DNA of 35,768 nucleotides from Rhodanobacter sp. (GTDB lineage Bacteria > Pseudomonadota > Gammaproteobacteria > Xanthomonadales > Rhodanobacteraceae): contig DZCM01000015.1 in NCBI GenBank assembly GCA_022730295.1, forward strand, positions 1 through 35,768, given 5' to 3'. The notes under the pieces are model-generated. The model did no database searches. It worked only from the letters and a program-made list of their open reading frames with translations, and was not told where the DNA came from. The position numbers and the translations under genes were made by a program. Shown here in pieces: positions 14,765 to 21,449 of the stretch (position 1 is its first letter; each line of letters begins with the position of its first letter).

Positions 14765-16123
14765 ATGGATTGTCCTGGTTGCGGACGCAGCCTCGCCGAA
14801 GGCGCCAAGTTCTGCGCCGGTTGCGGAACCCGTATCGAAGCCGTCGCGGATCCCGCGTGCCCGCAATGTGGCGCGGCGCATCCCGCGGATGCGAAGTTCT
14901 GCAAGCAGTGTGGCCATTCATTCGTCGCCGTCCCTCCGCCCGCGCCGCCGCCTGCCTATGTGCCGCCGACTGCGGCCGCTGCCGAAGCGTGCCCGCATTG
15001 CGGCACGCCGCGCGTGCCGGGCATAAGGTTCTGCAAGCTTTGCGGGCAGCCTTTCGAGGATTCCGTCGCGCCGCCTGCTGCGCCCGCGGACGAAGATTCG
15101 ACGGTCTTCAAACCGGTCCGTTCCGCCGACACAACCGCAACCGTCGCGCCCGCCGCCGCACTGCCGGGTGCGAATGAAGTCGCAGGCGCCGCGACCTCGC
15201 TGGATGAATTGTTGGCCGCGCCGCCGGCGGGCGCGACCGCTGATGCTGCGCAAGGCCAGGTCGCGGCCACTGCTGCGGCCGCGCCGCCGCCGCCCGTGCG
15301 ACCCGCGGCGCCGGTCGCGCCGCGCGCGAACGCCGGATTGCCGGGTTGGCTGATCGGCGTCATCGTCGCGGTAGTGTTGATAGTGGTTGGGGGCGTCGCG
15401 GCGTTTGCCTACGTGAAGTTCTTCCACCACGCCCAGCCTGCGGAAACCTTGGCCGAGACACCGGCTGCATCCGCGGGAACCTCCGCCAGTGCCGCGCCGA
15501 TCGCGATGACGCCAGCAGCACCTGCCGCAGCGGCATCGCAAGTCACGGCGGCAGCGCCCGCTGGATCGGGGGCGGGTGGAGCAACTACCGGCGCGATGGC
15601 CACGGCGGGCTCAGTTGCCGCGACGGCCGCGGGATTGCCACCCGCCACCGCGGTTTCGGGCGCGACTGCGCCGGCAATAGACCAGTCCAGCCAGATCGCC
15701 GACCTAGTTGTGCAGGGGCAGAATGACTACGCGCGTGGCCGCTACAACGACGCCATCCGCAAGGCGAAGTCCGCGCTCGATGTGCAACCAGGGGATGTCG
15801 GAGCACAGGCGCTTCTGCAGCAGGCCACCGACGCCCAGCAGCGGGTCGCCGCGCAGCGCGCGCGTGAGCGCAAGGAGCGCGCCGAGCGCAAGAAGGCCGA
15901 GCAGGCCGCGGCCGCCAGGCAGGCTGCGGCGGAAGCCGCGCGGCAGGCCGCCGTTCCGATTCCACGCACGCCGACGCCGGACGAAATCTACAACCAGCGC
16001 GCGCACGACGAGTGTCACCGCGGCTTTTTTGGCATGAGCTGCAGGCACAAGATTCGCGTGCAGGTGTGCCAAGGTGCGAAGGCGGGGGCGCCGGGCACGA
16101 CGGTGTGCAGCAAGAACAATTGA
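14765..16123 (+). CDS. triple zinc-ribbon, single-pass membrane protein with TPR-like and Cys-containing C-terminus
   Basis: A 452-aa protein of unknown function. It begins with three CxxC zinc ribbons: CPGCG...CAGCG (residues 3-21), CPQCG...CKQCG (33-50) and CPHCG...CKLCG (77-95). An Ala/Pro-rich linker of about 100 residues follows, then one transmembrane segment (about 195-220, LIGVIVAVVLIVVGGVAAFAYV) and a second Ala-rich linker. Residues about 305-350 form a TPR-like pair (VQGQNDYARGRYNDAIRKA), followed by a charged coiled-coil helix rich in Arg/Glu/Ala. The end has four cysteines (CHRGFFGMSC, then CQG and CSK) that could form disulfides outside the cell. AAGGGG precedes the ATG. The next gene, 103 nt on, also carries a zinc ribbon. 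Confidence 0.85.
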   Translation: MDCPGCGRSLAEGAKFCAGCGTRIEAVADPACPQCGAAHPADAKFCKQCGHSFVAVPPPAPPPAYVPPTAAAAEACPHCGTPRVPGIRFCKLCGQPFEDSVAPPAAPADEDSTVFKPVRSADTTATVAPAAALPGANEVAGAATSLDELLAAPPAGATADAAQGQVAATAAAAPPPPVRPAAPVAPRANAGLPGWLIGVIVAVVLIVVGGVAAFAYVKFFHHAQPAETLAETPAASAGTSASAAPIAMTPAAPAAAASQVTAAAPAGSGAGGATTGAMATAGSVAATAAGLPPATAVSGATAPAIDQSSQIADLVVQGQNDYARGRYNDAIRKAKSALDVQPGDVGAQALLQQATDAQQRVAAQRARERKERAERKKAEQAAAARQAAAEAARQAAVPIPRTPTPDEIYNQRAHDECHRGFFGMSCRHKIRVQVCQGAKAGAPGTTVCSKNN

Positions 16124-19375: not shown

Positions 19376-19941
19376 TCTTGACCAGCCTCCTCGCCAGCTT
19401 CCGCGATCTGTGCCTGTTCCGGCGCGGGCCGGAAGACATCCCGTATGCGCCGCGCCTGCTGATCGCCTTGCTGGTCGTGTGCGCGGCGATGCAAATTGCG
19501 TTCAACCTGTACACCGGGGTCAAGCCCGGGGTGGCCGCCGGTATCGTTATCGGCAGTCTCGCCGACTTGGGCATGGTGTGGGTATTGTTGCGCGGGCGCG
19601 AGAAGCCCGAGCGTTTCGTGCAGACCGCCACGGCGCTCGCGGCGGTATATCTCGTCTTCGAGTTGGCGCAAAACCTGTTGACCTTGCGCTTGCCGATTGA
19701 GCAGTGGCGCCAGCAACTCATGGCAACGCCCCGCCATCTGCCGGAGCTGACCGGCTCCCAGGAATTGATGGCGCTCGCCGTCGTGGTACTCGGCATCTGG
19801 CAACTGTGCATCTGGATCAGCTGCCTGCGCCGGTCGCTGGACATCTCCATCGCGGGCAGCGTGCTGATGTTCCTGTTGCTGGTGTTCGTGTACATGATCG
19901 TCGCGGCACTGGCCGCTGGCGTGCTGCTGGGCGGCGCATGA
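19372..19941 (+). CDS. conserved-looking four-helix inner-membrane protein
   Basis: A 189-aa hydrophobic protein with about four transmembrane segments (roughly 28-46, 50-72, 83-102, 130-150 and 160-186, of which one may be re-entrant). I do not recognise the family. The only in-frame start that keeps the first segments is TTG at 19372, whose last bases form TTGA with the adk stop; the nearest ATG would remove the first 39 residues. No ribosome-binding site is visible, so translational coupling to adk is likely. Its stop TGA overlaps an ATG (19938) in the mpl frame. Sandwiched between adk and mpl, it may have an envelope role, but nothing in the sequence shows one. Confidence 0.75.
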   Translation: MILTSLLASFRDLCLFRRGPEDIPYAPRLLIALLVVCAAMQIAFNLYTGVKPGVAAGIVIGSLADLGMVWVLLRGREKPERFVQTATALAAVYLVFELAQNLLTLRLPIEQWRQQLMATPRHLPELTGSQELMALAVVVLGIWQLCIWISCLRRSLDISIAGSVLMFLLLVFVYMIVAALAAGVLLGGA

Positions 19942-19958
19942 ACAACGGCCGGAGCGAC

Positions 19959-21449
19959 ATGCGCATCCACATCCTCGGCATTTGTGGAACCTTCATGGGC
20001 GGTGTCGCCGCCCTGGCGCGCGAGCTGGGTGTCGAGGTGGAGGGCTCCGACGCCAACGTGTATCCCCCGATGAGCGAGCAGTTGCGCGCGCTCGGAATCA
20101 ACCTCCAGGAAGGCTGGGCCGCGGAGCATTTGCAGCCGGCACCGGATCTGGTGGTGGTCGGCAACGCGTTGTCGCGCGGCAATGCTTCCATTGAATACAT
20201 GCTTGACGCCGGCTTGGCGTACGTGTCCGGCCCCCAGTGGCTGGGCGAACACGTGCTGCGTGGGCGCGAGGTGCTCGCGGTCGCCGGCACCCACGGCAAG
20301 ACGACGACGACAAGCTTGCTGGCGTACCTGCTCGATGCGGCGGGCTTGCTGCCGGGATTTCTGATCGGCGGGGTGCCGGAAAACTTCGGCGTATCGGCGC
20401 GACTTGCTGGCGTTCCCTTTCCCCGCAAGCGGGGGAAGGTGGCGCGCAGCGCCGGATGGGGGGCGTCCTCGCACGATGGCCCCCATCCGCCCTCAGGGCC
20501 CCTTCCCCCGCTTGCGGGGGAAGGGAATGGCGAGTCGCCTGCGGCGACACCATTTGTTCTGGAAGCGGACGAGTACGACACTGCGTTCTTCGACAAGCGC
20601 TCGAAGTTCGTGCATTACCGGCCTCGCATCGCGATCCTCAACAATCTCGAATTCGACCACGCCGACATTTTTCCCGACGTGGCCGCGATCCAGCGCCAGT
20701 TCCATCACCTGGTGCGCACGGTACCGGGCAATGGCCGCCTGATCGTGAATGCGGAAGACGCGCGCCTCGCCGAGGTGCTGGCGATGGGTTGCTGGACGCC
20801 AGTCGAAACCTTCGGCATCGATGCGGGTGATTGGCGCGCGCGCTTGCTCAGCGCCGACGGCTCCGCGTTTGCGGTTACGCATGCGGGCGCGACTGTCGGT
20901 GACGTGCACTGGAACCTCAGCGGCCGCCACAACGTGATGAATGCGCTGGCGGCGCTGGCGGCGGCGAATGCCGCCGGCGTTGCGCCAGATGCCTTGTTGC
21001 CGGCATTCGCGGGCTTTGAAAGCGTCAAGCGGCGGATGGAACAGTTGGGCGAGCACGCCGGAGTGCGGGTTTACGACGACTTTGCGCACCACCCGACCGC
21101 CATTGCCACCACGCTCGCCGGATTGCGCGCCAAGGCCGGAAACGCCCGCATCCTGGTCGCCTTCGAGCCGCGCTCGAACTCAATGCGGCAGGGTGCGCAT
21201 GCAGCGGCGCTGGCGCCATCGCTGGCGGATGCTGATGCCGTGGTCTTGCTGCATCGTCCCGAACTGCCGTGGGACGCACACCGGGTGATTGACGCACTCG
21301 GTGGTCGCGGTGCCGAGGCCGCCACCGTCGCTGAATTGGTGGCAGCATTGCAGGCGCGGGCGCGTGCTGGTGATCACGTCGTGTTCATGTCCAATGGCGG
21401 GTTCGAGAATGCTCCGCGGCGGTTTCTGGAAGCCTTGCGGCGCGGTTAG
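19959..21449 (+). CDS. mpl: UDP-N-acetylmuramate:L-Ala-gamma-D-Glu-meso-DAP ligase, carrying an in-frame element
   Basis: Recycles peptidoglycan: joins the murein tripeptide to UDP-MurNAc with ATP in the cytoplasm. The protein starts MRIHILGICGTFMGG and shows SDANVYPPMS, SGPQWLGEHVL, the P-loop GTHGKTTTTS (Gly110-Lys114), LEADEYDTAFFDKRSKFVHY, NNLEFDHADIF, YDDFAHHPTAI and EPRSNSM, all as in E. coli Mpl. It is 496 aa against about 457 in E. coli; 40 extra residues (about 152-191) come from a palindromic element inserted between SARLA and the EADEYD strand. Removing it restores SARLAGES, close to E. coli SARLGES. Start 19959 has GGAG 5 nt upstream; an alternative ATG at 19938 overlaps the previous stop. 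Whether the insert harms activity is unknown, but the frame is kept open throughout. Confidence 0.95.
   Translation: MRIHILGICGTFMGGVAALARELGVEVEGSDANVYPPMSEQLRALGINLQEGWAAEHLQPAPDLVVVGNALSRGNASIEYMLDAGLAYVSGPQWLGEHVLRGREVLAVAGTHGKTTTTSLLAYLLDAAGLLPGFLIGGVPENFGVSARLAGVPFPRKRGKVARSAGWGASSHDGPHPPSGPLPPLAGEGNGESPAATPFVLEADEYDTAFFDKRSKFVHYRPRIAILNNLEFDHADIFPDVAAIQRQFHHLVRTVPGNGRLIVNAEDARLAEVLAMGCWTPVETFGIDAGDWRARLLSADGSAFAVTHAGATVGDVHWNLSGRHNVMNALAALAAANAAGVAPDALLPAFAGFESVKRRMEQLGEHAGVRVYDDFAHHPTAIATTLAGLRAKAGNARILVAFEPRSNSMRQGAHAAALAPSLADADAVVLLHRPELPWDAHRVIDALGGRGAEAATVAELVAALQARARAGDHVVFMSNGGFENAPRRFLEALRRG
20413..20527. mobile_element. 115-bp palindromic MITE-like element inside mpl
   Basis: The two ends are inverted repeats: TTCCCTTTCCCCGCAAGC at 20413 matches the complement of the right end at 20527 with one difference over 27 bp. 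The match resumes inside (CGGATGGGGG against CCCCCATCCG). Each end also holds its own CCCCGC-AA-GCGGGG hairpin. The element is bounded by direct repeats of TGGCG (20408-20412 and 20528-20532), a 5-bp target duplication. The net gain is 120 bp, 40 codons, with no stop. It encodes no protein of its own, so movement would need a transposase elsewhere. It resembles Rickettsia palindromic elements in behaviour, not in sequence. Confidence 0.85.

Follow-up and report, generated by a model that had tools for sequence, protein, structure and literature searches.

A palindromic repeat within the reading frame of mpl

The window, the whole 35,768-nucleotide stretch of DNA that was analysed, carries a gene for the ligase Mpl on its forward strand, and a variable loop encoded by this gene contains a long palindrome with a small hairpin beside it. 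The features of the locus are listed below with the evidence for each.

19959-21449, forward strand: mpl, UDP-N-acetylmuramate:L-alanyl-gamma-D-glutamyl-meso-diaminopimelate ligase (TIGR01081 equivalog; open frame 19704-21449)
20400-20552, forward strand: entire variable mpl loop, 51 codons long where empty relatives have 7 (comparison with relatives)
20408-20412, forward strand: left TGGCG, claimed as a duplication, unsupported (sequence, relatives, flank tests)
20413-20527, no strand assigned: mpl palindrome, type A, two inverted REP-like units (inverted-repeat search, shuffles, unit comparison)
20413-20462, forward strand: first REP-like unit, TTCCC...GGATGGGGG (comparison of unit copies)
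20479-20527, reverse strand: second REP-like unit, inverted (comparison of unit copies)
20528-20532, forward strand: right TGGCG (sequence, relatives, flank tests)
20534-20548, no strand assigned: small hairpin GTCGCCTGCGGCGAC adjoining the palindrome (sequence; similar hairpins in relatives by eye)

The Mpl protein matched TIGR01081 over the complete profile (1-448 of 448) with 613.9 bits against a cut-off of 388.7, and the mpl reading frame runs open through the whole palindrome, which bears out the initial annotation of an in-frame, stop-free insertion in this peptidoglycan-recycling gene. The start at 19959 was picked by eye, and another in-frame ATG lies at 19938. The palindrome arms (20413-20439 and 20501-20527) are 27 nt long and 96% complementary, in agreement with the 27-bp terminal inverted repeats with one mismatch that had been annotated. 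Between 20350 and 20600, with at most one mismatch allowed, this arm of 27 nt was the best, and arms in 200 dinucleotide shuffles did not exceed 14 nt. Among 285 tiles of 251 bases from the window, only three had an arm of 16 nt or more, and the two besides the palindrome stopped at 16. RNA folding of the palindrome region gave -116.9 kcal/mol (z = -9.1). Each unit is about 50 bp long and is laid out as TTCCCTTCCCCCGC..GCGGGGGAAGG, a hairpin and GGATGGGGG(C), and hairpins resembling GTCGCCTGCGGCGAC adjoin the right side of type A inserts in several relatives, as judged by eye.

The absence of stop codons was considered as a special trait of the element and rejected; five of its six frames are open, yet 230 of 1000 shuffles were stop-free in every frame, so that composition goes far toward explaining the open frames. 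The top Rfam match was to a microRNA family, at 42.7 bits against a gathering score of 168, and was taken as a chance match to a long hairpin. Elsewhere in the window, the open frame 14765-16123 contains, at 15138-15273, a further two inverted repeats, which are imperfect (19-21 nt, 84-86% complementary).

Relatives with an empty loop have, as a rule, 7 codons between SA and the strand FV(I/V/L)EADEYD, and the loops of g11, g18 and G134 read as 7 to 8; the 51-codon loop of the window has gained 44 residues (132 bp), the small adjoining hairpin included. The in-frame gain had thus been annotated correctly, but its size had been put at 120 bp, or 40 residues, and removal of 120 bp, which was thought to restore a family-like SARLAGES, leaves SARLAGESPAATPF, four residues too long. 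An AlphaFold model of Mpl (45 sequences) had a mean pLDDT of 86.8 and a pTM of 0.87, with values below 50 at residues 159-194, the insert, and above 90 at most other residues, and its best structural matches were Mpl 3hn7 and MurC 1p3d. The model suggests that the insert is a low-confidence, probably disordered excursion on an intact Mpl fold.

Occupancy of the loop and the sites of insertion in relatives

The mpl loop was read at 129 of 133 loci, 128 of them from family f1, probably Rhodanobacteraceae, and one from the next family, with L159, L215 and L260 excluded for another register (canonical by eye) and L230 of G075 for absence of the motif. A long loop, of 16 to 73 codons and always a multiple of three, was present in 41 of these 129 relatives, a sample that is not random since it joins the best of a listed search to other loci; 227 of the 233 genomes of the family have mpl. 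The rest of the gene varies in length by at most 5 codons on each side of the loop (the contig-truncated L046 aside). The window's genus (g1) yielded the mpl segment from 15 of its 16 genomes, and 14 of the 15 loops were long, that of G006 being empty. Among the best 80 named loci of a longer list, several of which duplicate numbered genomes, 69 loops were read; 63 were canonical, one was a residue shorter, two were nine longer and three were long (L076 of Rhodanobacter thiooxydans, L078 and L084). Relatives with empty 7-codon loops were found, an empty site being what the initial annotation had proposed to look for, and these empty sites contradict the outcome it had named as adverse, namely the same 40 residues in all relatives with no palindrome.

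TGGCG stands on either side of the palindrome, at 20408-20412 and 20528-20532, as annotated; read as a target duplication, it is not a rule, judging from the inserts of relatives and from flank statistics. The inserts of G013 and G014, similar to that of the window, are without the TGGCG pair. For 11 unit copies of the window's genome (G000), two of which are the mpl pair, the flanks matched over a mean of 2.4 bp against 2.0 bp when re-paired, a value as high being reached in 61 of 500 re-pairings, and letter shuffles of the mpl flanks gave a match of at least 5 bp near the ends in 52 of 2000 cases. Filled and empty sites were also aligned within one genus (G170 and G016, upstream flank 93% identical); in our own alignment the insert replaces about 7 bp, and no target duplication was seen in it.

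Types of occupant and their repeats in the same genomes

The 41 long loops comprise 25 of type A, nine of type B, five of type D, one of type C and one unassigned, where L177 (G184) was typed by eye as A and L161 (G225) as D, and the types of G174, G225, G227 and G211 are weakly based, on short motifs; the count of filled and empty loops is independent of typing. Eight of the 14 filled loops in the window's genus are of type A, four of B and one each of C and D. Type B reads GGGGTCAGAGT..ACTCTGACCCC, type C is GACGGAGGCAATTAA plus its inverse, and type D consists of runs rich in G (GGGGACT or GGGATTC, for example) plus the inverse. Local alignment of seven representatives found no similarity between types beyond that of shuffles (at least 47 of 200 shuffles scored as high), and within types A, B and D none of 200 shuffles scored as high.

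With no more than one mismatch allowed, a stem that none of 100 shuffles reached was present in all nine type B loops (15-32 nt), in four of the 25 of type A, in the one of type C, in one of the five of type D and not in the unassigned loop. Single or worn units account for many of the type A inserts, and most of those in Rhodanobacter are both single and worn. A palindrome is shown in only these 15 of the 41 long loops; folding z-scores of -2 or below were obtained for 24 of the 41.

Type D matches, counted in both orientations, are dispersed; each of the five genomes of this type that were searched has 17 to 59, whereas G003 has one and G000 has none. Type B pairs outside mpl numbered six in G009, four in G222 and one each in G224 and G234, and the reversed pattern, used as a control, had no match in 15 genomes. 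The same pattern found no type B pair outside mpl in G033 and G212, and none at all in G008, G001 and G015, whose own mpl copies fall outside it. G234 has a type B copy in mpl and a second copy with identical arms, the second lying within an open frame (L293) that reads like a helicase. The occupants are mostly resident repeats of their genomes. Downstream of its in-frame type B palindrome, the L293 frame contains a second repeat-like segment.

Copies of the type A element in conserved genes

Units related to type A gave 51 matches in G000, a draft genome of 110 contigs and 81.6% completeness; by our own count these are about 34 places, mpl included, with 40 of 63 candidates scored and most matches covering about half the element. 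The initial annotation had proposed a search for other copies, above all inside ORFs; such copies exist, several of them in frame in conserved genes, and they exclude the alternative it had named, no other copy of the repeat anywhere. A scan of 22 loci gave 39 open frames through a copy, of which 15 were read. The seven submitted, chosen as the most gene-like of the 15, all proved to be conserved enzymes bearing the element in frame. In four of them (IleRS, an ABC1/UbiB-like protein, an M20 peptidase and an MBL protein) a single Pfam match encloses the element. In an aminopeptidase P-like protein with a split Creatinase_N_2 match the element follows the best stretch of that match, and in ValRS and a lipoyl-E3 it is located between domains. 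The linker of this lipoyl-E3 (L011, G000, C57:6011) has two repeat-like segments. One Y1 (RAYT) transposase match was found in this 82%-complete genome, a weak one to PF01797 (L030, C66:7517-7747) that is not adjacent to a listed copy, the closest on its contig being 6.5 kb away. Neither a GTAG nor a CGTC tag was seen by eye at the ends of 11 unit copies.

Similar sites in valS and ileS

The valS loop segment was read at 25 of 30 loci and has 36-38 residues in 11, 43 in two and 49-78 in 12, not all of the long segments being shown to be repeats. G006, whose mpl loop is empty, has a valS segment of 63 residues. The ileS gene was read at 18 of 30 loci; G000, G014, G011 and G022 have one and the same site filled, and a second site nearby, after RAKGA or RAQGA, is filled in G009 (L357), G011 (L362) and G015 (L371), so that G011 has both filled. 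The valS and ileS sites vary in relatives much as the mpl loop does. The second-site inserts of G009 and G011 look alike (PTPTQTL..LKGRA/LRGRA) and that of G015 is different. Around the filled site, part of the ileS of G008 (L358) is strongly unlike that of its congeners (RYGSSEENGAALTRGKP) and may be a transferred segment.

History of the loop and the change within inserts

On the mpl gene tree, empty loops are interspersed among filled ones, and at least 14 changes between filled and empty and at least 23 changes of type are required; the bootstrap of both gene trees is not settled, and strongly supported branches alone force at least six changes between filled and empty. Two pairs of sisters have differing occupants, G014 (type A) with G003 (type C) at a support of 100/100 and G010 (A) with G015 (B) at 100/99.

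Selection on the inserts was examined with 11 type A loops of Rhodanobacter (probably genus g19), in three same-length sets that gave 19 non-independent pairs. Differences at the three codon positions numbered 130:135:145 over 2136 insert sites and 130:78:545 over 7410 flank sites, sums that include the pair L181/L180 with its odd flank count of 28:23:44, perhaps due to an indel. The inserts of this set change at every codon position about as fast as third positions of the flanks; apart from the frame and the absence of stops, no selection on their amino acids is apparent. The initial annotation had offered exaptation or tolerance of the element; tolerance is upheld, and exaptation is not, the Rhodanobacter inserts changing equally at all codon positions.

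A probably tolerant loop and the alternatives

We favor, with a probability of about 0.77, the reading that, in the course of this family's evolution, several unrelated repeat families have filled, and apparently filled anew, a tolerant loop. A non-autonomous palindromic repeat of two inverted REP-like units would enter the Mpl loop in frame. Selection would remove most insertions in genes, and the Mpl loop would bear long disordered excursions, such that inserts that keep the frame and lack stops would survive. Because such a loop tolerates frame-keeping inserts, the same loop could be filled, and apparently refilled, by unrelated families. We infer how the elements move and in what order events took place at each site, and also that the long Mpl with a filled loop is made and active.

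Simple tolerance alone does not predict that 14 of 15 loops in one genus are long. This high occupancy would be expected from a hot spot at the DNA level, at which the machinery that moves several families prefers some DNA feature and the loop merely bears the inserts, and many inserts indeed start right after CGGCTGGG or a similar sequence. We consider such a hot spot improbable, given the four dissimilar types of occupant, the different sequences of the valS and ileS sites and the lack of a visible target duplication; moreover, CTGGG belongs to the conserved SARLG codons, and its presence therefore needs no explanation. The occupancy of mpl in that genus, and likewise of valS there, could also reflect selection for a longer loop, in which in-frame inserts benefit Mpl, ValRS or IleRS, for example through a new contact or slower turnover, and are exapted. 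The equal differences at the three codon positions of the Rhodanobacter inserts, against mostly third-position differences in the flanks, and the low-confidence, probably disordered prediction for the insert make this very unlikely.

A single ancestral insertion that diverged past recognition, with no new insertions, is extremely improbable for the loop as a whole. Within sets of type A, where the inserts of G000, G013, G014 and others look related and have a common right-hand hairpin, it may apply, but it is contradicted overall by the dissimilarity of types A, B, C and D, by type B pairs that are near-perfect palindromes common to other loci of the same genome and by the empty loops among filled ones on the tree. 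The draft state of the genome might suggest an assembly artefact or a dying gene, an explanation to which we give practically no weight in view of the full-length equivalog score of Mpl and of the long loops in the single-contig genomes G014 and G004.

Within the tolerant-loop reading, high occupancy in one genus together with sister species that have different occupants would allow for one palindrome directly replacing another. Such slots could perpetuate themselves if a palindrome-filled loop favors direct replacement by another family, by hairpin-driven template switching or by insertion of element upon element, a tentative idea that we regard as rather unlikely. If it were true, a few housekeeping enzymes would have a cassette position whose occupants turn over at about the rate at which species split.

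Relation to known repeats

In a bacterial interspersed mosaic element, or REP dimer, two REP-like units are inverted about a short spacer. The mpl element has the same two-unit build; it differs in lying within a coding frame, and apart from the one weak Y1 match no transposase partner was found. Like a MITE, it has terminal inverted repeats, but copies elsewhere in the genome are commonly single units and the target-site duplication of a MITE is not seen as a rule.

In-frame palindromic elements are already known, best from Rickettsia, as are intragenic REPs in many bacteria. A review of Rickettsia palindromic elements describes dispersed palindromes of 105-146 bp fused in frame in conserved protein genes, with the carrier enzyme Gmk remaining active (PMC2229807). 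The mpl element is likewise palindromic, about 100-150 bp, dispersed and in frame in conserved genes, and the initial comparison with the Rickettsia elements is borne out by its other copies, in-frame carriers and empty relatives. The likeness claimed is one of behavior; the host is another one, and here several dissimilar families succeed each other in one loop. REPs tagged with GTAG or CGTC, as monomers and dimers, are described in frame in enzymes of free-living bacteria, tRNA synthetases among them, and different REPs are reported at about the same site in recB of X. campestris and X. oryzae (PMC3733652). The mpl units have neither tag at their ends by eye, and the same-site case given in that paper is one gene in two species. 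A GGGNATC quadruplex-forming repeat of Xanthomonas is described as under-represented in coding regions (PMC4692102), and its likeness is to the type D inserts only, not to the element of the window.

A search by title and abstract, with most subscription journals outside its coverage, found no report that mpl, valS or ileS genes in this family carry palindromic inserts. As far as this literature goes, what is new is the scale, one enzyme loop filled many times by several families with parallels in two tRNA synthetases. A family of free-living bacteria offers dozens of natural inserts at a single enzyme position, with empty sister species as controls, and tolerance, exaptation or target choice in the gain of protein segments from mobile DNA becomes testable both by comparison and on natural enzyme pairs.

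Probable long loops in other families

Sequence alignments of Mpl to the solved chains 3hn7 and 3eag are interrupted at the loop, which has 32 residues in 3hn7, and this suggests that the Psychrobacter Mpl (3hn7) also has a longer than usual loop. In the order, 299 genomes were screened for a split match to mpl, in which three matches have a best E of about 1e-31 to 1e-34; this was taken as the mark of a long loop, and the tallies were made by hand. No split match was found in 145 genomes of other families, eight of which had weak matches only and one none, too little for a judgment. Split matches were present in 14 of 76 genomes of this family, 11 of which were read and all found to be long, and in 11 of 78 of a second family (f2), where G048 was the one read. 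Seven of the eight genomes of genus g67 in that second family have a split mpl match, for example G319, G351 and G383.
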